From positions 1 to 63,748 of the forward strand of contig DWVD01000087.1 in the NCBI GenBank assembly GCA_019120395.1: a stretch of DNA of 63,748 nucleotides, written 5' to 3'. Within the stretch, counting starts at the first letter, position 1; the number at the start of each line of letters is the position of its first letter. A program made the position numbers and the translations under genes. Below the pieces are notes generated by a model. That model searched no databases and was not told the origin of the DNA. It saw only the letters and a list, made by a program, of their open reading frames with translations. The stretch is from Candidatus Gemmiger faecigallinarum. Its GTDB lineage: Bacteria; Bacillota; Clostridia; Oscillospirales; Ruminococcaceae. This document shows positions 2,523 to 44,418 of this stretch, piece by piece.

Positions 2523-3626
2523 ATGCCAATGCAAATGGGATGGCGCTGGTATGGCGAGGGCAACGACCCCATCACGCTGGGCGACATCAAACAGATCCCC
2601 GGCGTGTCCACCATCGTCTGGGCGCTGCACGACAAAATGCCCGGTGAAGTCTGGGAAGTGGACGAGATCAAGAAGGTCGTCGACCAGATCGAGTCCTACG
2701 GCTTCAACGCCGACGTGGTCGAGAGCGTCAATGTCCACGACGACATCAAGATCGGTCTGCCCACCCGCGACGCGCTGATCGAAAACTACAAGCAGTGCAT
2801 CCGCAACCTGTCGCAGTTCGGCGTCAAGGTCATCTGCTACAACTTCATGCCCATCTTTGACTGGACTCGCACCGACCTGTTCCACCCGGTGGGCGACGGC
2901 TCCACCGCGCTGTTCTACCAGAAGGACATGATCCAGGACGACTACAAGGCCATGGCCGAGTACATCCTGAACTTTACCGAGAAGTACAACATGACCTTCC
3001 CCGGCTGGGAGCCGGAGCGCATGGCCAAGCTGGACGAGCTGTTCAAGGCCTACGCCCCCGTTACCAAGGAAAAACTGTGGGATAACCTGAAGTATTTCCT
3101 GGAAGCCATCATGCCCACCTGCCGTGAGTGCGATGTCAAAATGGCCATCCACATGGACGATCCCCCGTGGGACATCTTCGGCCTGCCCCGTCTGCTCACC
3201 GACGCCGAGGCCATCGACCGCTTCCTGACCATGGTGGATGATCCGTACAACTGCCTGACGCTGTGCTCCGGCAGCCTGAACGCCAACCCCAACAACAACG
3301 TGGCCGACATCGTGCGCAAGCACTGCGACCGCATTGCGTTCGCCCACATCCGCAACATCCACCACTTCCCCAACGGCGACTTCAGCGAGGCCGCCCACCG
3401 CGACTGCTGCGGCGAGACCGGCATCATCGAGATCCTGCGCGCCTACCATGACTGCGGCTTTGAGGGCTACATCCGCCCCGACCACGGCCGCCAGCTGTGG
3501 GAGGAAGGCCCCGGCAACTGCCGCCCCGGCTACGGCAAGTACGACCGCGCCCTGGGCATCCAGTACATGCTGGGCGTCTGGGACCTGCTGGACCGCCTGG
3601 ACGAGGAGAAGAAGGCCGGCAAGTGA
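2523..3626 (+). CDS. uxuA: Mannonate dehydratase
   Basis: The 367-residue product matches the UxuA family, which dehydrates D-mannonate to 2-keto-3-deoxygluconate using a divalent metal. The N-terminus (MGWRWYGEGNDPITLGDIKQ) is very characteristic, and the length is usual for the Gram-positive type. A strong AGGAGG site precedes the ATG. With uxuB it gives two consecutive steps of glucuronate breakdown; KDG kinase and aldolase are not in the window. Two hairpin terminators follow. Confidence 0.95.
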   Translation: MPMQMGWRWYGEGNDPITLGDIKQIPGVSTIVWALHDKMPGEVWEVDEIKKVVDQIESYGFNADVVESVNVHDDIKIGLPTRDALIENYKQCIRNLSQFGVKVICYNFMPIFDWTRTDLFHPVGDGSTALFYQKDMIQDDYKAMAEYILNFTEKYNMTFPGWEPERMAKLDELFKAYAPVTKEKLWDNLKYFLEAIMPTCRECDVKMAIHMDDPPWDIFGLPRLLTDAEAIDRFLTMVDDPYNCLTLCSGSLNANPNNNVADIVRKHCDRIAFAHIRNIHHFPNGDFSEAAHRDCCGETGIIEILRAYHDCGFEGYIRPDHGRQLWEEGPGNCRPGYGKYDRALGIQYMLGVWDLLDRLDEEKKAGK

Positions 3627-3671
3627 CCGCCCGGCTTTTGCGCCCGTATAAAACCGCATAAAAACTTATTT

Positions 3672-3705
3672 CCGGCCGCCCTGTCAGGGGCGGCCGGTTT
3701 TTGTT
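3672..3705 (+). terminator. Terminator after uxuA
   Basis: A GC-rich stem (CCGGCCGCCC pairing with GGGCGGCCGG) with a short loop is followed by a T-run, 45 bases after the uxuA stop. Confidence 0.8.
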
Positions 3706-3730
3706 GGAATTTGCCGAACTCTGTGCGGCA

Positions 3731-3761
3731 GCCCCCTCCCGTTGCCGGGAGGGGGCTTTTT
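3731..3761 (+). terminator. Second hairpin terminator downstream of uxuA
   Basis: GCCCCCTCCC and GGGAGGGGGC form a perfect 10-bp stem with loop GTTGCC, followed by TTTTT. The remaining sequence up to the feo promoter at 3882 shows no gene. Confidence 0.8.
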
Positions 3762-3881
3762 ACAGGCGCGGGCAGCGCGATTGCACAATGCAAACCAGAA
3801 TTGCCCATGTGCAACATGGATAAAAAAACTGCCTGCCGCACGCTGCTTTTTGCAAATTAGCCGAAACGAACCAAATTGACC

Positions 3882-3918
3882 GTTAGCTATTGACAACACG
3901 CATTAGCGATGGTAAACT
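3882..3918 (+). promoter_or_regulatory. feo promoter with two overlapping operator-like sites
   Basis: TTGACA (3890-3895), a 17-base spacer and TGG-TAAACT (extended -10, hexamer 3913-3918) make the promoter. It is covered by two related 16-bp half-palindromes, GTTAGCTATTGACAAC (3882-3897) and ATTAGCGATGGTAAAC (3902-3917). The first overlaps the -35 and the second the -10. Nearly the same arrangement recurs on the minus strand at 7213-7250. Placement on an iron-uptake operon suggests an iron-responsive repressor of the DtxR/IdeR or Fur type; the protein is not in the window. Confidence 0.7.
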
Positions 3919-3997
3919 TCAAATTGAACGAAACCCGTGCACGCCGCGGCGCAGGGCTGCGCGCAGTACGGGAAACAGGGAAAGGAGGCGCCCCGTT

Positions 3998-4210
3998 ATG
4001 ATGCCGCTTTCGATGGCAAAACCGGGCGAAACCGTAACCATCCGCAAGATCACGGGCAGGGACGAGGTACGCCAGCATTTGGCGGAGCTGGGCTTTGTTG
4101 TGGACAGCGAGGTCACTGTGGTCAACGAGCTGGGCGGCAGCCTGATTTTGCAGGTCAAGGACTGCCGCGTGGCGCTGGACCGCCAGATGGCCAACCGTGT
4201 GATGATCTGA
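3998..4210 (+). CDS. feoA: FeoA-type protein (first copy)
   Basis: A 70-residue SH3-like FeoA domain (GETVTIRKITGRDEVRQHLA, then ELGFVVDSEVTVVNELGG). FeoA proteins are small cytoplasmic partners of the FeoB ferrous iron permease. The start was set at the ATG at 3998, 9 bases after AAAGGAGG; an upstream in-frame ATG would lie before the predicted transcription start. A second feoA follows after 50 bases, so this is a feoA-feoA-feoB operon, a common arrangement in Clostridia. Confidence 0.9.
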   Translation: MMPLSMAKPGETVTIRKITGRDEVRQHLAELGFVVDSEVTVVNELGGSLILQVKDCRVALDRQMANRVMI

Positions 4211-4260
4211 CCGCCGGCGCGGCGGCTGCCGTGCGGCAATCCGAAAAGGAGGAATTTGTG

Positions 4261-4482
4261 ATGAAAACACTCAAAGACGCCAAAGTGGGCGACGTGGTCA
4301 CCGTGGTGCGCCTGCACGGCGAGGGGCCGGTCAAGCGGCGCATCATGGACATGGGCATCACCAAGGGCACGGTGCTGAAAGTGCAAAAGGTGGCCCCGCT
4401 GGGCGACCCGATGGAGCTGACCGTGCGCGGGTACGAGCTGTCCGTCCGCAAAGCCGACGCCGAGATGATCGAACTGGTTTGA
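4261..4482 (+). CDS. feoA: FeoA-type protein (second copy)
   Basis: A 73-residue FeoA domain (TLKDAKVGDVVTVVRLHGEG, then RRIMDMGITKGTVLKVQKVA). It is the more canonical of the two copies, carrying the typical RRIMDMGITKG segment. The ATG follows an AAGGAGG site and the gene ends 38 bases before feoB. The two copies differ enough that they are probably old paralogues rather than a recent duplication; whether they act together on FeoB is unknown. Confidence 0.95.
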   Translation: MKTLKDAKVGDVVTVVRLHGEGPVKRRIMDMGITKGTVLKVQKVAPLGDPMELTVRGYELSVRKADAEMIELV

Positions 4483-4520
4483 GCGCAGCAGAGCTGCATT
4501 GGATTACGGAGGAATTTGTC

Positions 4521-6713
4521 ATGCCAATCAAAATTGCGCTTGCCGGCAACCCCAACAGCGGCAAGACCACCCTGTTCAACCACCTGACCGGCTCCAACCA
4601 GTATGTGGGCAACTGGCCGGGCGTCACCGTCGAAAAAAAGGAAGGCCGGCTGAAAGGCCACGACGACGTGGTCATCCAGGACCTGCCGGGCATCTACTCG
4701 CTGTCCCCCTACACGCTGGAGGAGGTGGTGGCTCGGAACTATCTGGTCACCGAGAAGCCCGACGTCATCCTGAACATCATCGACGGCACCAACATCGAAC
4801 GCAACCTTTACCTGACCACCCAGCTGATCGAGCTGGGCATCCCGGTGGTCATGGCGGTCAACATGATCGACCTGGTGCGCAAAAACGGCGACAAGATCGA
4901 CATCAAAAAGCTGGGCGCCGCCCTGGGCTGCGAGGTCCACACCATCAGCGCGCTGAAGGGCGAGGGCTGCCTGGAAGCCGCCGAGGCCGCCATCCGCCTG
5001 GCCGGCCAGCCCCGCACCGCCGAGCTGCCCCACGTCTTTACCGGCAGCGTCGAGCACGCCGTCGCCCACATCGAGGAGTCCATCTCGGACAAGGTGGACG
5101 CCGGGCTGCTGCGCTGGTACGCCATCAAGCTGTTTGAGCGGGACGAGAAGGTGCAGCAGCAGCTGGCTCTGCCCGCCGCGCTGGTCAAGCACATCGACGA
5201 GCACATTGCCGACTGCGAGAAGGAGCTGGACGACGCCGCCGAGAGCATCATCACCAACCAGCGCTACACCTACATCGCCGGCGTGGTGGCCAAGTCGGTC
5301 AGCAAAAAGCGGGCCGTCCATGCGCTGACCACCTCCGACAAGATCGACCGGGTGGTCACCAACCGCATCGCCGCGCTGCCCATCTTTGCACTGGTCATGT
5401 TCCTGGTCTACACCATCGCCATGGGCGGAACCCCCGTCTCCATCGGCACCATGGCCACCGACTGGGTCAACGACGTTCTGTTCGGCGAGATCATTCCCCC
5501 GGCCGTGGAGGGCTTCCTGGTCTCTGTCGGCTGCGCCGACTGGCTGGTGGGTCTGATCAACGACGGCATCGTGGCCGGCGTGGGCGCGGTGCTGGGCTTT
5601 GTGCCCCAGATGCTGGTGCTGTTCTTCCTGCTGTCCATCCTGGAGGATGTGGGCTATATGTCCCGTATCGCCTTTATCATGGACCGGATCTTCCGCAAGT
5701 TCGGCCTGTCCGGCAAGAGCTTTATCCCCATGCTGGTGGGCACCGGCTGCGGCGTGCCCGGCGTCATGGCCTCCCGCACCATCGAGAATGACCGTGACCG
5801 CAAGATGACCATCATGACCACCTGCTTCATCCCCTGCGGCGCAAAAATGCCCATCATCGGCCTGTTTGCCGGCGCGATTTTTGGCGGCAGCGGCCTGGTG
5901 GCGGTGTCCGCCTACTTCATCGGCGTGGCGGCCATCATCCTCTCCGGTATCATCCTGAAAAAGACCAAACTGTTTGCCGGCGACCCGGCGCCCTTTGTCA
6001 TGGAGCTGCCCGCCTACCATGTTCCCGCCTGGGGCAACGTGCTGCGCGCCACCTGGGAGCGCGGCTGGTCCTTCATCAAGCGGGCCGGCACCGTCATCCT
6101 GGCATCCACCGTTGTGCTGTGGTTCCTGCAGGGCTTCGGCTTCACCGACGGCGCCTTTGGCATGGTGGAGGATAACAACACCAGCCTGCTGGCCGCCATC
6201 GGCGGCGCGGTCAGCTTTATCTTCGCCCCGCTGGGCTTCGGCACCTGGCAGGCCACCGTCGCCACCGTCACCGGCCTGATCGCCAAGGAAAACGTTGTCT
6301 CCACCTTCGCGGTGCTGTTCGGCTATGCCGGCGAGATCTCGGAGGAAGGGCAGGAGATCTGGGGCCTGATCCCCGCCCACTTTACCGCGCTGACCGCTTA
6401 CAGCTTTATGATCTTCAACCTGCTGTGCGCCCCCTGCTTTGCGGCCATGGGCGCCATCAAGCGGGAGATGAACAACGGCAAGTGGACCGCCTTTGCCATC
6501 GGTTATATGTGCGTGTTCGCCTACGCCGCTTCGCTGATGGTCTACCAGATCGGCGGCCTTATCACCGGCGAGGTCAGTTTCGGCCTGGGTACCATCGTGG
6601 CGCTGGCCGTGCTGGTCGGCCTGCTCTACCTGCTGCTGCGCAAGAACCCCTACGAGGACAAAACCGGCGGCAGCCTGAAGGCTTCCCGTATGGCGTCTGC
6701 CTCCGCAAAATAA
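4521..6713 (+). CDS. feoB: Ferrous iron transport protein B
   Basis: The 730-residue FeoB imports Fe(II) across the cytoplasmic membrane. The N-terminal G domain shows the P-loop GNPNSGKTT at residues 9-17, the G3 segment DLPGIYSL and the G4 element NMID. It is followed by the FeoB helical region and a polytopic C-terminal half with two gate-like repeats (the first containing GCGVPGVMASRTIEN). The start was placed at 4521 because ACGGAGG lies just before it; an upstream in-frame ATG would overlap the second feoA. Length is normal for Firmicutes. Confidence 0.97.
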   Translation: MPIKIALAGNPNSGKTTLFNHLTGSNQYVGNWPGVTVEKKEGRLKGHDDVVIQDLPGIYSLSPYTLEEVVARNYLVTEKPDVILNIIDGTNIERNLYLTTQLIELGIPVVMAVNMIDLVRKNGDKIDIKKLGAALGCEVHTISALKGEGCLEAAEAAIRLAGQPRTAELPHVFTGSVEHAVAHIEESISDKVDAGLLRWYAIKLFERDEKVQQQLALPAALVKHIDEHIADCEKELDDAAESIITNQRYTYIAGVVAKSVSKKRAVHALTTSDKIDRVVTNRIAALPIFALVMFLVYTIAMGGTPVSIGTMATDWVNDVLFGEIIPPAVEGFLVSVGCADWLVGLINDGIVAGVGAVLGFVPQMLVLFFLLSILEDVGYMSRIAFIMDRIFRKFGLSGKSFIPMLVGTGCGVPGVMASRTIENDRDRKMTIMTTCFIPCGAKMPIIGLFAGAIFGGSGLVAVSAYFIGVAAIILSGIILKKTKLFAGDPAPFVMELPAYHVPAWGNVLRATWERGWSFIKRAGTVILASTVVLWFLQGFGFTDGAFGMVEDNNTSLLAAIGGAVSFIFAPLGFGTWQATVATVTGLIAKENVVSTFAVLFGYAGEISEEGQEIWGLIPAHFTALTAYSFMIFNLLCAPCFAAMGAIKREMNNGKWTAFAIGYMCVFAYAASLMVYQIGGLITGEVSFGLGTIVALAVLVGLLYLLLRKNPYEDKTGGSLKASRMASASAK

Positions 6714-39773: not shown

Positions 39774-40424
39774 ATGATCAAGCTCAGCCCGTCGATTCTG
39801 GCGGCGGATTTCGCCCGCCTGGGCGAGCAGTGCCGCACCGTGCTGGAGGCCGGCGCGGACATGCTGCATTTTGACGTGATGGACGGCCATTTTGTGCCCA
39901 ACATCAGCTTCGGCGCGCCGGTGCTGGCCAGCCTGCACAGGGCGCTGCCCGACGCCTTCTACGACGTCCACCTGATGATCTCGGACCCGGCGGGCTACGC
40001 CCCCGCCTTTGCCAAAGCCGGCGCCAGCTGCATCACCTTCCATGTGGAGGCGGCGGACGACCCCAAAGCCGTCATCGCGGCCATCCGCGCCTGCGGCGTG
40101 CAGGCGGGGGTCAGCCTCAAGCCCGGCACCCCGGTGGAGCGCATCTTCCCGCTGCTGCCGCTGGTGGACCTGGTGCTGGTCATGAGCGTCGAGCCGGGCT
40201 TTGGCGGCCAGGCATTTCTGCCGGACGCGGCGGGGCGCATCGCGGCCATCCGCGCCGCCTGCCGGGCGCAGGGCGTCGATCCGCATATCTCGGTGGACGG
40301 CGGCGTCAACCTGGAAACCGGCGCCCGGTGCGCCGCCGCCGGCGCCGACGTGTTGGTGGCGGGCAGCACGGTGTTTGCCGCGCCGGACCCCGCCGCAGCC
40401 GTCGTCGCGCTGCGGGCGCTGTGA
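39774..40424 (+). CDS. rpe: Ribulose-phosphate 3-epimerase
   Basis: A 216-residue TIM-barrel enzyme interconverting ribulose- and xylulose-5-phosphate. KLSPSILAADFARLGEQ, MLHFDVMDGHFVPNISFG (metal His and Asp), YDVHLMISDP, VMSVEPGFGGQAF and ISVDGGVN are all present. The ATG has an AAAGGGGAA site. The 204 bases before it carry no recognisable gene. It is followed by the Rnf-like genes on the same strand. Confidence 0.97.
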   Translation: MIKLSPSILAADFARLGEQCRTVLEAGADMLHFDVMDGHFVPNISFGAPVLASLHRALPDAFYDVHLMISDPAGYAPAFAKAGASCITFHVEAADDPKAVIAAIRACGVQAGVSLKPGTPVERIFPLLPLVDLVLVMSVEPGFGGQAFLPDAAGRIAAIRAACRAQGVDPHISVDGGVNLETGARCAAAGADVLVAGSTVFAAPDPAAAVVALRAL

Positions 40425-40501: not shown

Positions 40502-41518
40502 ATGCCAAAACATCCCAAAATCGAGCGCAGTGCCAACTACGACTATTATGCCGACGTGCTCTGGTGCTGTGTGCCGCTCATTGTCATGAGCTGCTATTAT
40601 TACGGGCTGCGCCCGGCGCTGCTGGCGCTGACGGCGGCCGTCACCGCCTACCTGTGCGACGGCCTGCTCAGCCCGCTGCACGCCAAGGGTTACCAGCCGC
40701 ACGAGCCTTCCAGCGAGTGTTTTGCCGTTTTGCTGACCATGCTTCTGCCGGCCAGTGTGCCCTATTACGTCGTTATTGCCGGCGCGGTCGTCGCGGTCTT
40801 TGTCAAGGAAGCTTTCGGCGGCGAAGGGCACTACCCCTTCCATCCGTCGGCGGTCGCGCTGGCGGTGGTGGGCCTGTCCTGGCCGGATCAGGTCTTTTTC
40901 TACCCCACGCCCGGCACGCCGCTGCCGCTGTGGGACGCCGGCTCCGCCGCGCTTACCGCCGGGATGAACGCGACTTTAAGCAGCGGCGGCCTTCCCACCG
41001 ACACCACGCTGAATCTGGTCATCGGCAACGTTTCGGGACCGATGGGCGCCAGCTGCATCCTGGTGGTGGCGGCCTGCGGCCTGCTGCTGCTCTGCCGCGG
41101 GCACCTCAAGCTGTCGGCGTTTTTGCCTTACCTGATCGCCTGCGTGCTGATCCCCTGGCTGCTGCCCAATCTGAACGAGCTGCCCGCGTTCAGCTTCCCG
41201 TGGGAATATGTGCGGCAGCGCGTTTACCTGGAAAAATATATCGTACTGTCGGGCACCATGCTGTTTGGCGGCATTTTCTTAGCCAGCGAGCCGGTCACCC
41301 AGCCCAACCGCCATTCCAGCCGCATCATCTACGGCCTGGCGCTGGGTGCCTTTGCCGCGGCCATGCGCTATATGAGCGACTACGAGACCGGTTTCTGCTT
41401 TGCGCTGCTGCTGGTCAACGCCATCCCCGAATGGCTGGATATGGTCGCCCGCCGCACGGAGCGCGTGAAATTTATGAAGAGGGAGGAAAAGCGCCTTGCA
41501 AAATACCGACCCGAATAA
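40502..41518 (+). CDS. RnfD-like (NQR2/RnfD/RnfE family) membrane protein
   Basis: A 338-residue polytopic protein with about nine membrane segments. NYDYYADVLWCCVPLIVMSC, KEAFGGEGHYPFHPSAVALA, LVIGNVSGPMGASC and LSGTMLFGGIFLASEPVTQP align with RnfD landmarks. The S/T-G-A-T site that carries covalent FMN in RnfD is not recognisable; the region reads SAALTAGMNATL. It overlaps the RnfE-like gene by 23 bases. RnfB, RnfC and RnfG are absent nearby, so a normal Rnf ion pump is unlikely from this locus alone. Confidence 0.8.
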   Translation: MPKHPKIERSANYDYYADVLWCCVPLIVMSCYYYGLRPALLALTAAVTAYLCDGLLSPLHAKGYQPHEPSSECFAVLLTMLLPASVPYYVVIAGAVVAVFVKEAFGGEGHYPFHPSAVALAVVGLSWPDQVFFYPTPGTPLPLWDAGSAALTAGMNATLSSGGLPTDTTLNLVIGNVSGPMGASCILVVAACGLLLLCRGHLKLSAFLPYLIACVLIPWLLPNLNELPAFSFPWEYVRQRVYLEKYIVLSGTMLFGGIFLASEPVTQPNRHSSRIIYGLALGAFAAAMRYMSDYETGFCFALLLVNAIPEWLDMVARRTERVKFMKREEKRLAKYRPE

Positions 41519-42452
41519 GCCCCGCGCCAAGGGCGCGAAAAACGCCCGGCCCGGCAAGAAAAAGCAGCAGGAAGGGCCGCAGACGCTGATCATCCCCCAG
41601 ATCTCGCCCGAAATGCTGGAAAGCGCCCGCCGCGCCGCCAGCGAGGGCAAGTCCCAGCAGGAGATCGAGCAGGCCGCCCTGGAGGCGGACGCCCGCCGCC
41701 GCGCCGAACAGGCCGCCCAGCAGCAGGCGCAGCCCCAGCAGCCGCCCCAGCCCGCGGCGCAGCAGCCCCAGCAGCAGGCGGCCCGCCGCCACCGCAAGAC
41801 CCGCGCCGAGGCCGAGGAGGAACTGGCCCAGCGGGTGCACGACGACCATCTGTGGCTGAACAACCCCGTCATGCTGCGCGGCCTGGGCCTGGCCCCGGTG
41901 GTCGCGGCGGCCAACACCGGGGAAAACGCCCTGATGCTGTGCGCGGCGGCCATCCTGCTTTTGACCGCCACCCGCATGCTGGCGGTGGCGGTCTGCCACC
42001 TGACCGGCAACCGCTTCCGGCCGGTGATCTACGTCTATTCGGCGGCCGTGCTGTACATTCCGGCCTACTGCATCCTGTATGCGCTGTTTGGCGCGGACCT
42101 GACGCTGCTGGGCATCTATCTGCCGCTGATGGTGGTAGAGCCGGCCATCATCAAGCGCATGGAAAACCCCGACCTGGAAACGGTGGGCGAGGCATTCCGC
42201 CGCGGCGTCAACAACACCGTCGGCCTGTGCGTCGCCATTCTGCTTGTGGGCGTTTTGCGCGAATTCCTGGGCCTGGGCTCGGTGTTCGGCAACACGCTGC
42301 TGAGCACGCCGCCGCTGCCCATCGCCGTACAGCCGGCCGGCGGGTTTATTCTGCTGGGCGTCATGGCCGCGCTGTGGACCGGCGTATCCAACGCCTATGT
42401 CCGCTACAAACAGGAGGAGGTGCGCCACATCTATGCTGAACGCCGCCGCTGA
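41496..42452 (+). CDS. RnfE-like membrane protein with long N-terminal Gln-rich extension
   Basis: A 318-residue protein. Residues 1-115 are hydrophilic, rich in Lys/Arg, Ala and Gln, with a probable helical stretch (SQQEIEQAALEADARRRAEQ). Then WLNNPVMLRGLGLAPVVAAA starts an RnfE-type six-helix domain. In RnfE/NqrD the two [2Fe-2S] cysteines sit in LGLCP and in the TNC of the mirror repeat; here they read LGLAP (Ala133) and VEP (Pro216). The start is TTG, inside the RnfD-like gene. It overlaps the next gene by 20 bases. Confidence 0.78.
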   Translation: MQNTDPNKPRAKGAKNARPGKKKQQEGPQTLIIPQISPEMLESARRAASEGKSQQEIEQAALEADARRRAEQAAQQQAQPQQPPQPAAQQPQQQAARRHRKTRAEAEEELAQRVHDDHLWLNNPVMLRGLGLAPVVAAANTGENALMLCAAAILLLTATRMLAVAVCHLTGNRFRPVIYVYSAAVLYIPAYCILYALFGADLTLLGIYLPLMVVEPAIIKRMENPDLETVGEAFRRGVNNTVGLCVAILLVGVLREFLGLGSVFGNTLLSTPPLPIAVQPAGGFILLGVMAALWTGVSNAYVRYKQEEVRHIYAERRR

Positions 42453-43080
42453 GCTTAGCGTTTTCGAGGCTGTGCTGCACTTTTTCACCTATGCGGTCAT
42501 GGCCGTTTTTGCCGAAAATATCGTCTTTACCCATGGGCTGGGCGTTTCGCAGCTGTTCAAGCTGGTGAAAACGCGGGACATCCGCACACTGCACCACTGC
42601 CTGCCCATCCTGCTGGTGCAGCTGCTTTCGGCGCCGCTGGTGTGGATGGCTCGCGTCTGGCTGACCCCCTGGCTGCGCGGCGTGCTGCCCGGCTGGCTGC
42701 CCGCCGCTGCGCTGCGCCCGGTCATCTATCTCAGCTGCGCGACCATCGCCATGGCGGTGGTCTGGCTGTTGTTCCACCTGTTTGGCCGCCGCGCTGCGCC
42801 TTATCTGGAGCAGCTGCCCATCGCCACCTACAACTGCTGCGTGCTGGGCACCATCCTGATCTGCGTCAACCAGAACTTTACGCTGCTGGAAACGGTGGCG
42901 TTCAGCCTGGGCAGCGGCATCGGCTATCTGTTTGCCGTGGCTGTCGTCGACGAGGGACGCCGCCGCCTGCGCAGCAAGGATGTGCCGGGCATTTTTACCG
43001 GCATGCCCATCTCGCTGATCTACATTGGAATTCTGGCGCTGGCCATCTACGGCCTGGTGGGACATTCCATCACCGCGTAA
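42433..43080 (+). CDS. RnfA-like membrane protein
   Basis: A 215-residue six-helix protein of the RnfA/RnfE fold. FAENIVFTHGLGVSQLFK corresponds to the RnfA segment NNFVLVKFLGLCP, with the cluster Cys replaced by Ser39. The mirror motif YNCCVLGT keeps Cys135/136. VDEGRRRLRSKDVPGIFTGM and LIYIGILALAIYGLVG close the chain. The ATG at 42433 lies inside the previous gene after GGAGGAGG, so translation is coupled. With three of four cluster ligands lost across the E and A proteins, electron transfer is doubtful. Confidence 0.78.
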   Translation: MLNAAAELSVFEAVLHFFTYAVMAVFAENIVFTHGLGVSQLFKLVKTRDIRTLHHCLPILLVQLLSAPLVWMARVWLTPWLRGVLPGWLPAAALRPVIYLSCATIAMAVVWLLFHLFGRRAAPYLEQLPIATYNCCVLGTILICVNQNFTLLETVAFSLGSGIGYLFAVAVVDEGRRRLRSKDVPGIFTGMPISLIYIGILALAIYGLVGHSITA

Positions 43081-43122: not shown

Positions 43123-44418
43123 ATGGACAAACCGAATCCCGCGCCCTGCTTTGGTCCGGCGCGGATCCTGCTGCCGGGCGCGGACACGCCGCTGGACCCG
43201 TGGGCCTGCATTGCGGTGGACCAGTTTACCTCGCAGCCGGACTACTGGCAGAAAGCCGAGGCGCTGGCCGCCGGGCGGCCCAGCACGCTGCACATCGTAC
43301 TGCCGGAGGTCTATCTGGGCGGCCCGGAGGAGGACGCCCGCCTGGCGTCCATCCGCGCCGCCATGGCCGACTATCGCAGCAGCCTGCTGACCCGCGTGGT
43401 CAACGGCTTTGTGTATGTGGAGCGCACCCAGATGGACGGCAGCATCCGCCAGGGCCTGGTGGGCGCGGTGGATCTGGAGGCTTACAGCTTTGACCCGGCC
43501 GACCGTCCGGCCGTCCGTCCCAGCGAGAATACCGTGGTGGAACGCATCCCGCCCCGGCTGAAAGTCCGCCGCGGCGCCCAGCTGGAGACCCCCCACGTGA
43601 TGCTGCTGGCCGACGACGCGGCCTGCACGCTGATCGAGCCGGTCGGCGCGGAAAAAGCCCGCCTGCCGCTTTTGTACGACGGCGAGCTGATGCTGGGCGG
43701 CGGCCGCCTGCGCGGCTGGGCGGTGGAGGACCCGGCGCTGGTGGCGCAGATCGAAGCCGCCGTCGCGGCGCTGGGCGACGCCGACGCCTTTGCCGCCCGC
43801 TGGCCCGGCGCCGCCGGGCAGCCGCCTATGACGCTGGCGGTGGGGGACGGCAACCATTCGCTGGCCACCGCCAAGGCGTACTGGGAGGAGCGCAAGGCGG
43901 CCCTGACGCCGCGGCAGCGGCAGGACGACCCCGCCCGGTACTGCCTGGTGGAGGTGTGCAACGTCCATTCGCCGGCCATCCAGATCGAGCCGATCCACCG
44001 GGTGCTGTTCGGCGTGGGGGCCGAACAGGTCCGCACCGCGCTGGACGGCTGGGCGGCGGCAAACACCATCTGCATCTCGCCGGATTCGGCCCAGCAGTTT
44101 ACGCTGGTGTCCGCCGCGGGGGACACGCCCCTGGGCTTTGCGGGCGAGGTGGAGCCGCTTGCGGTGGGCACCGCCGAGCGGTTCGTGCAGGACTTTTTGC
44201 AGCGCTGCCCCGGCGCGTCGGTGGATTACGTCCACGGAGAAGCCGCGGTGCGCCGCCTGGCGGCCGGGGGCGCTGTGGGCCTGCTGATGCCGCCGCTGCA
44301 AAAGGCCGACCTGTTCCGCGGCGTGGTGCTGGGCGGCGTGCTGCCCCGCAAGACCTTCAGCATGGGCCACGCCGAGGAAAAACGATATTATAACGAGTGC
44401 CGCAGCCTGGTGGACTGA
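43123..44418 (+). CDS. DUF1015-family protein
   Basis: A 431-residue cytoplasmic protein of the DUF1015 family, defined by the segment LAVGDGNHSLATAKAYWEE. Other conserved parts are PWACIAVDQFTSQPDYWQ near the start and GLLMPPLQKADLFRGVVLGG and MGHAEEKRYYNECRSL at the end. Function is unknown; relatives lie beside serine or amino acid genes. It starts 42 bases after the RnfA-like gene with AAGGAGG and is probably in the same transcript. Confidence 0.9.
   Translation: MDKPNPAPCFGPARILLPGADTPLDPWACIAVDQFTSQPDYWQKAEALAAGRPSTLHIVLPEVYLGGPEEDARLASIRAAMADYRSSLLTRVVNGFVYVERTQMDGSIRQGLVGAVDLEAYSFDPADRPAVRPSENTVVERIPPRLKVRRGAQLETPHVMLLADDAACTLIEPVGAEKARLPLLYDGELMLGGGRLRGWAVEDPALVAQIEAAVAALGDADAFAARWPGAAGQPPMTLAVGDGNHSLATAKAYWEERKAALTPRQRQDDPARYCLVEVCNVHSPAIQIEPIHRVLFGVGAEQVRTALDGWAAANTICISPDSAQQFTLVSAAGDTPLGFAGEVEPLAVGTAERFVQDFLQRCPGASVDYVHGEAAVRRLAAGGAVGLLMPPLQKADLFRGVVLGGVLPRKTFSMGHAEEKRYYNECRSLVD

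Follow-up and report, generated by a model that had tools for sequence, protein, structure and literature searches.

Whether Na+ crosses the membrane through subunit D (NqrB) or through the A/E pair is disputed for the Rnf and Na+-NQR complexes. According to the cited passages of a study on Acetobacterium woodii (PMC11889175), reduction of the cluster held by A and E electrostatically draws Na+ and drives an inward/outward switch of this pair, RnfD serves electron transfer only, and Na+ is gated by an ion-pair network made up of RnfE R67 and E115 and RnfA E88. The same passages report that the RnfE changes R67A, L103G and V106G abolished autotrophic growth and that N107A allowed it partially, and that E115 could be replaced by Ala with wild-type growth, by Gln with much reduced growth and by Lys with no growth. 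A review likens A/E, in the section cited, to alternating-access symporters (PMC12174285), and the cited part of a Clostridium tetanomorphum paper places the ion channel in RnfD (PMC9588780). Here we describe a trio of genes for RnfD-, RnfE- and RnfA-like membrane proteins on a 63,748-nucleotide stretch of Candidatus Gemmiger faecigallinarum DNA (contig DWVD01000087.1, assembly GCA_019120395.1; referred to as “the window”). By the features tested, the trio is a paralogue family of the Rnf membrane core, lacking the known redox sites, and not an Rnf complex.

The trio shares with the Rnf complex (RnfABCDGE, ferredoxin:NAD+ oxidoreductase) the homology of D, E and A, the predicted folds of D and A and most of the RnfE gate residues, but here it stands in an rpe operon without B, G or C, and it has lost three [2Fe-2S] ligands out of four as well as the Thr that binds flavin mononucleotide (FMN) covalently. 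The Rnf complex has an RnfC with two [4Fe-4S] clusters and an FMN/NAD site, whereas the window locus has no RnfC. Na+-NQR has also been explained, in a passage of PMC4014512, as a duplicated and re-purposed rnf operon minus rnfB. However, as far as the cited passages describe it, NQR kept its membrane cofactors and gained NqrF (PMC12174285, PMC4014512), while the trio lost the sites and no new reductase was seen. An RnfD-like subunit without the covalent FMN site is likewise described in the cited parts of the work on NQR/RNF-like flavinylated systems (Meheust 2021; PMC8238504, PMC10979944), in which a PF00175 NAD-binding domain and an RnfG-like flavoprotein accompany it and the apparent subunits number only two; the trio, in contrast, has a D with only PF03116, plus E and A, and no RnfG, the scanned window neighbours being without FMN_bind. 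We saw no description of such a trio in what our literature searches, which covered open-licence PubMed Central, listed.

An earlier note on this DNA had proposed overlapping D-, E- and A-like genes between rpe and a DUF1015 gene, with no B, C or G. Pfam matches bear out the assignment (Table 1), and no rnfB, rnfC or rnfG was found at the window locus. The D and E genes overlap by 23 nt and the E and A genes by 20 nt, and the E-like gene has, as judged by eye, a TTG start with GGAGG ahead of it. These overlaps, together with ribosome-binding-like sites (also by eye), suggest translational coupling of D, E and A. Against the NCBIfam rnfD, rnfE and rnfA cut-offs the three proteins score far too low (120.6 vs 207.05, 65.7 vs 213.4 and 61 vs 229.3, respectively). 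The AlphaFold2 model of the D-like protein (mean predicted local distance difference test score, pLDDT, of 90) has RnfD/NqrB as its best matches in the PDB, with template modelling (TM) scores by query of 0.73-0.77 for the three best RnfD chains, and the model of the A-like protein (mean pLDDT 81) best matches NqrE/RnfA (probability 1.00, E 1.4e-3 to 2.1e-2). The next matches of the D model, which include a urea transporter and AmtB, reach a probability of 0.95 with E 0.018-0.12 and TM 0.30-0.41; this weak match to the urea/ammonium channel fold was probably inherited from RnfD and does not, then, point to urea or ammonium transport. All three proteins are homologous to Rnf subunits, D and A by Pfam and model and E by sequence alone.

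Sites in E and A were mapped by sequence alignment to the solved A. woodii Rnf (9eri_E and 9eri_A) and counted over 185 trio loci, which reduce to 144 distinct ones. In the window, one of the four cysteines of the membrane [2Fe-2S] site is present. As had been claimed, cluster sites are occupied by Ala133 and Pro216 in E and by Ser39 in A, and only the NCC of A is kept; the alignments put no Cys on the other three sites. At the RnfA Cys25 site, none of the 185 loci has a Cys even within 4 columns (Ser in 112 and Thr in 14 of the distinct loci). The RnfE Cys108 site has no Cys in any of the 185 either, with 13 of them carrying one within 4 columns, and the RnfE Cys25 site has it in one (L230). 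Three of the four cysteines are therefore missing in 184/185 trio loci, which agrees with the earlier view that the electron path has been stripped. The RnfA Cys113 site is Cys in 63/144 distinct loci; the kept Cys of A is not a conserved feature of the family. Each of the four cysteines in the window E protein is shared by 64/185 loci at most. Taken together, the counts at the ligand sites and the lack of conservation of the other E cysteines make a four-Cys cluster of the Rnf type very unlikely in this family.

To place the trio among relatives, 150 of them were searched with the A protein, and 137 matched, canonical RnfA among them. Fetched loci comprise 40 from the wider family (38 from its other genera and 2 from elsewhere in the order), 30 from the genus besides the window, and named loci representing the best 80 of 106 matched, the genomes of which partly overlap the other sets. 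Named carriers are Faecalibacterium prausnitzii (L135, L167, L170, L171), Gemmiger formicilis and Gemmiger gallinarum, and further Fournierella, Ruthenibacterium, Anaerofilum and Pygmaiobacter. Beyond this family, the matches listed from an order-wide search with an A-like profile included trio-type loci that we could confirm only in families f5, f23 and f24; this profile also picks up canonical RnfA, and counts from that search were not used. The matches listed from a class-wide PF02508 search were canonical hits and gave no measure of how far the trio reaches. In family f24, the L230 locus (2981-6509) has a gene for the beta subunit of a Na+-translocating decarboxylase, followed by genes for D-like, YkwD-like lipoprotein, E-like and A-like proteins; its E-like protein is the sole trio-type one seen with Cys at the RnfE C25 site.

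Wherever there was room for it, rpe lies 5' of the trio in 38/38 wider-family, 28/29 genus, 72/74 named and 9/9 other loci (room was lacking in 2/40, 2/31, 6/80 and 1/10, respectively), and it is beside none of 11 canonical rnf operons. The misses are L091 in the genus and L116 and L181 among the named loci; L116 does have rpe, with the D frame extended over it. No same-strand B or G was found at 38 wider-family, 29 genus, 74 named and 9 other trio loci (150 in all), compared with 11/11 canonical operons, although the profiles used were weak, G being built from one sequence and B from two; one opposite-strand B match lies at the end of L049. Frames and gene order are intact across genera. A tree was built from 70 rows of concatenated E, A and D, rooted at the midpoint and with weak deep trio branches. 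It joins the 11 canonical rows in a single group (support 100) on a branch of 1.33 changes per column, with the trio rows on the opposite side. An RnfC-like gene (order rpe-C*-D-E-A) stands beside D in 15/40 wider-family loci and in 4 of the others, and is missing in the Faecalibacterium-Gemmiger clade, the window included; three changes on the tree are needed to explain its presence. Because of the rpe linkage and the family-wide loss of cysteines, the trio is best seen as an old, family-wide paralogue of the Rnf membrane core and not as a product of local decay. The simplest reading of its origin would be one old duplication with an ancestral order rpe-C*-D-E-A-(DUF4015), followed by losses of C*.

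The residues that gate Na+ in RnfE fared differently from the ligands. The R67 site is Arg in 119, Lys in 7 and His in 6 (132/144 distinct loci) and the E115 site is Glu in 99 and Asp in 4 (103/144), and both are kept (R/K/H and E/D) in 99/144. The L103 site is L, M or I in 138/144, the V106 site is V in 93/144, and N is found at the RnfA N112 site in 120/144. At the RnfE N107 site, next to the lost ligand Cys108, 71 of the 144 distinct loci have Glu, 28 have Asp and 39 have Asn, so that the site is acidic in 99. All 28 tree rows of the Faecalibacterium-Gemmiger clade (support 100), which is without the RnfC-like gene, are acidic here, as is one further row, L067, which has this gene. As Glu and Asp interchange inside the clade, the charge itself probably matters. 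Newly conserved Tyr, Glu and His residues are also seen in the trio proteins over the 144 distinct loci. A Fisher test of the acid against the RnfC-like gene (p 7e-9) was discarded, as the rows are related and the acid has essentially one origin plus L067.

For D, sites were mapped by alignment to C. tetanomorphum RnfD (7zc6_D) in 178 trio rows, not deduplicated. The covalent-FMN Thr was judged by its alignment column, a search for the motif string having missed canonical RnfD itself. This column is Thr in 10/11 full-length canonical proteins and in 11/178 trio proteins; in the window it is not Thr, in a linker that aligns poorly, which agrees with the absence of a clear covalent-FMN motif noted earlier. 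The FMN-side residues Arg130 and Glu185 of RnfD are gone as well. The Asn124 site of the riboflavin pocket is Asn in 15/15 loci with the RnfC-like gene and His in 42/52 without it, and the site of the strictly conserved Asp248 is acidic in 174/178.

When the window genes were compared with those of five genus relatives, the ratios of nonsynonymous to synonymous substitution rates (dN/dS) were 0.12-0.16 for D, 0.21-0.33 for the E core and 0.12-0.27 for A. For comparison, rpe gave 0.20-0.39 and the DUF1015 gene 0.19-0.30, and the E core was above rpe in one of the five. The trio genes are under purifying selection. A survey of 197 family genomes at least 95% complete (counted by hand, the window's own row also being printed) showed just two matches, both canonical-grade, in 38 genomes, four matches with at least one of canonical grade in 130, no match in 18 and a mixed picture in 11. 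Of 40 genomes with the trio, 35 also have canonical Rnf. However, G559 (97% complete) and G588 (99% complete) have only a divergent E/A pair and no canonical Rnf; their matches to the RnfB profile are to the ferredoxin part, bar one of 20.8 bits in G588, compared with scores for the N-terminal part of 78.5 bits in G059 and 55.2 bits in the window genome. The order rpe-D-E-A-DUF4015 is intact in G559 (locus L250), and the G588 locus ends at a contig end. Since these two genomes keep the pair without canonical Rnf, the trio apparently need not depend on it. The same order with divergent proteins is found in G617 and G621, and G504 and G611, from the genus of G559 and G588, have no Rnf-Nqr match at all. 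A lone divergent E-like protein is the only Rnf-Nqr match in each of two genomes that are 97% complete at a size of just 0.7 and 0.9 Mb (L254 6036-6641 and L255 6499-7200).

What the comparison of loci establishes, at the level of sequence, is loss of ligands, retention of gate residues, gain of an acid and selection. As the known cofactor sites are missing, the gate pair is mostly retained and a carboxylate has been gained, we propose that the trio derives from the Rnf membrane core, is free of redox chemistry and works as an ion carrier or an ion-coupled carrier; we regard this as quite possible, if short of probable, and the ion or metabolite transport suggested in the earlier note seems plausible. 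In such a scheme, rnf genes were most likely duplicated long ago in this bacterial order and one copy came to sit behind rpe. Homology and the published A. woodii work make it most likely that D, E and A remain together in one membrane complex, in which the E/A pair would be an ion path of the alternating-access type. The permanent Glu or Asp by the lost cluster (Glu215 in the window) would replace the negative charge of the reduced cluster that draws Na+. The carrier would let Na+ or H+ follow its gradient, either by itself or with coupling to a solute, with no need for ferredoxin or NADH; as a guess, hinted at by rpe and by the gene for a membrane-anchored DUF4015 protein, the substrate class might be sugar or cell envelope. 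A bolder form of this proposal, possible as well and more speculative, is that the trio represents a third branch of the Rnf/NQR superfamily, in which a redox pump became an ion carrier that needs no redox reaction; its permanent carboxylate would imitate the reduced Fe-S cluster, and it would work beside a normal Rnf in Faecalibacterium, Gemmiger and relatives.

Several observations weigh against a redox-free ion carrier. RnfA E88, the third member of the ion-pair network, has not been retained (102/144 distinct loci have Leu, Trp or Met there), the RnfA T110 site is Thr in only 59/144, and the RnfA K32 site is variable, with Lys in the window. Among 17 rows with the RnfC-like gene, the E115 site is acidic in 6 and non-acidic in 11. 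The change from Asn to acid is essentially one event, and its link with the loss of the RnfC-like gene is statistically light. The ion role of RnfD is itself in dispute, with the cited passages of PMC9588780 for it and those of PMC11889175 against it. Moreover, Asp248 flanks riboflavin, and the charge kept there could reflect a bound flavin in D. Two cysteines of D are conserved, C192 in 153/178 and C299 in 137/178 rows, and the canonical RnfD of the window genome is without them; C299 aligns with RnfD Ser284, an FMN contact in C. tetanomorphum. These newly conserved cysteines may point to a cofactor of another kind. They also fit a shorter electron route, in which D would keep a non-covalent membrane riboflavin and pass electrons between the cytosol, through the RnfC-like [4Fe-4S] protein in relatives, and the outside. 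The RnfC-like proteins beside the trio keep two CxxCxxC motifs in 15/15, Asn124 and an acidic Asp248 site, both flanking riboflavin, accompany that gene in 15/15 each, and an NQR/RNF-like complex with an RnfD-like subunit lacking the covalent FMN site, described in a passage of PMC10979944, offers a precedent. However, we consider this route unlikely, as GxGGxGFP is found in 0/15 of these RnfC-like proteins, the clade of the window has no RnfC-like gene and often His at the Asn124 site, Arg130 and Glu185 on the FMN side are gone, and no RnfG was detected at the counted loci, with a weak one-sequence profile and no search for ApbE.

The trio might instead be a scaffold, or a lipid or glycan carrier, for the extracytoplasmic DUF4015 protein and serve cell-envelope building instead of ion transport. 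The DUF4015 gene (PF13200; membrane-anchored as judged by eye) directly follows A in 34/40 wider-family loci and in the loci L250-L253 without canonical Rnf, and genes for sensor kinases occur at 20 loci and for HtrA-like proteases at 9; two annotated kinases have WalK as their best match, but lie far under its cut-off (258.4 and 244.3 vs 725). As the trio is kept and selected in the genus although DUF4015 is at none of the 31 genus trio loci and has no match in the window genome (83% complete), this role is rather more doubtful than a shortened electron route. The frequent presence of canonical Rnf in trio genomes (the 35/40 given above) would also suit an exchange in which the D-, E- and A-like proteins enter the cell's own canonical complex in place of its subunits, or a role in regulating that complex. 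This seems improbable: G559 and G588 have only the divergent pair and no RnfB-like match near canonical strength, the operons are separate, and the long branch sets the canonical rows apart. That the trio is a decaying relic would accord with the lost cofactor sites and with the 38 of 197 family genomes that have two canonical-grade matches only, which indicate that it can be lost, but it is extremely unlikely in view of dN/dS values of 0.12-0.33, about as for rpe, of the intact frames and gene order, and of the newly conserved Tyr, Glu and His.

The redox-free carrier, if real, bears on the dispute over the Na+ path. With the known cofactor sites gone, the E gate residues largely kept and a new charge by the cluster site, the trio family is a natural experiment, and if the trio conducts ions, the ion path would be open to study without electron transfer. 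At the same time, to annotate the trio loci of Faecalibacterium prausnitzii and Gemmiger as “electron transport complex subunit D/E/A” or the like would be misleading and could inflate counts of Rnf in gut genomes.

Table 1. Genes and codons of interest at the trio locus, in positions of the window
Feature	Position	Strand	Remarks
rpe, ribulose-phosphate 3-epimerase	39774..40424	+	PF00834 2.2e-71; TIGR01163 above cut-off; 77 bp 5' of D-like gene
D-like subunit, 338 aa	40502..41518	+	PF03116, E 1.6e-49
D-like His114 codon	40841..40843	+	at C. tetanomorphum RnfD Asn124 (riboflavin pocket); alignment to 7zc6_D
D-like C192 codon	41075-41077	+	
D-like Glu263 codon	41288..41290	+	at strictly conserved RnfD Asp248
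D-like C299 codon	41396-41398	+	
E-like subunit, 318 aa	41496..42452	+	PF02508, E 3.8e-26
E-like Ala133 codon	41892..41894	+	at RnfE cluster ligand Cys25; alignment to 9eri_E
E-like Arg175 codon	42018..42020	+	RnfE Arg67 of the Na+ gate pair
E-like Glu215 codon	42138..42140	+	at RnfE Asn107, adjoining lost ligand Cys108; new carboxylate
E-like Pro216 codon	42141..42143	+	at RnfE cluster ligand Cys108; alignment to 9eri_E
E-like Glu223 codon	42162..42164	+	RnfE Glu115 of the Na+ gate pair
A-like subunit, 215 aa	42433..43080	+	PF02508, E 4e-19
A-like Ser39 codon	42547..42549	+	at RnfA cluster ligand Cys25; alignment to 9eri_A
A-like Cys135 codon (in NCC)	42835..42837	+	at RnfA cluster ligand Cys113; alignment to 9eri_A
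DUF1015 gene, 3' neighbour of A	43123..44418	+	PF06245 3.9e-54

DUF1015 directly follows A in Gemmiger and a few others, but DUF4015 is the usual 3' neighbour in the wider relatives, in several of which DUF1015 lies behind it. In the DUF4015 proteins after A (L037-L076), the position that we take to be the catalytic acid of such putative hydrolases is Asp or Glu in only 13/34, and some of them may be binding proteins and not enzymes. The sensor kinase genes are related to one another, and some of the kinase and protease genes lie 5' of rpe (e.g. L063, 13125-16200). A nucleoside metabolism theme was considered and dropped, as phosphopentomutase, cytidine deaminase and purine phosphorylase, identified by eye near the trio, occur at too few loci (3 to 4 each).

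A full rnf operon, which the earlier note had thought worth looking for, is present elsewhere in the window genome: canonical rnfC-D-G-E-A-B, in that order, on contig C44 (L097, 855-5953, minus strand), with 4/4 cluster cysteines and the GxGGxGFP loop of RnfC. Its D, E and A score 263.2, 219.8 and 228.5 against NCBIfam; D, E and C are above the cut-offs, A is 0.8 bit short and B 2.5 bits short, and G, which matched no family at the E limit used, was named from its position and sequence. Elsewhere, one canonical operon has RnfD fused to an FMN_bind (RnfG-type) domain in a single frame of 496 aa (L222, 3961-5451), and another has an RnfG of 636 aa with four FMN_bind stretches (L219, 3985-5895).

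The E-like protein of the window starts with an N-terminal extension of about 120 aa (41496-41860), rich in Gln, Ala and Pro and of a Gemmiger type. Ahead of the conserved NPV, this extension measures 97-269 aa in 30 genus loci (within L077-L107) and 14-95 aa in the wider-family relatives (29 loci in which the anchor motif was found). A T[LV]IIP[QH]I motif occurs in all five of the genus extensions inspected for it.

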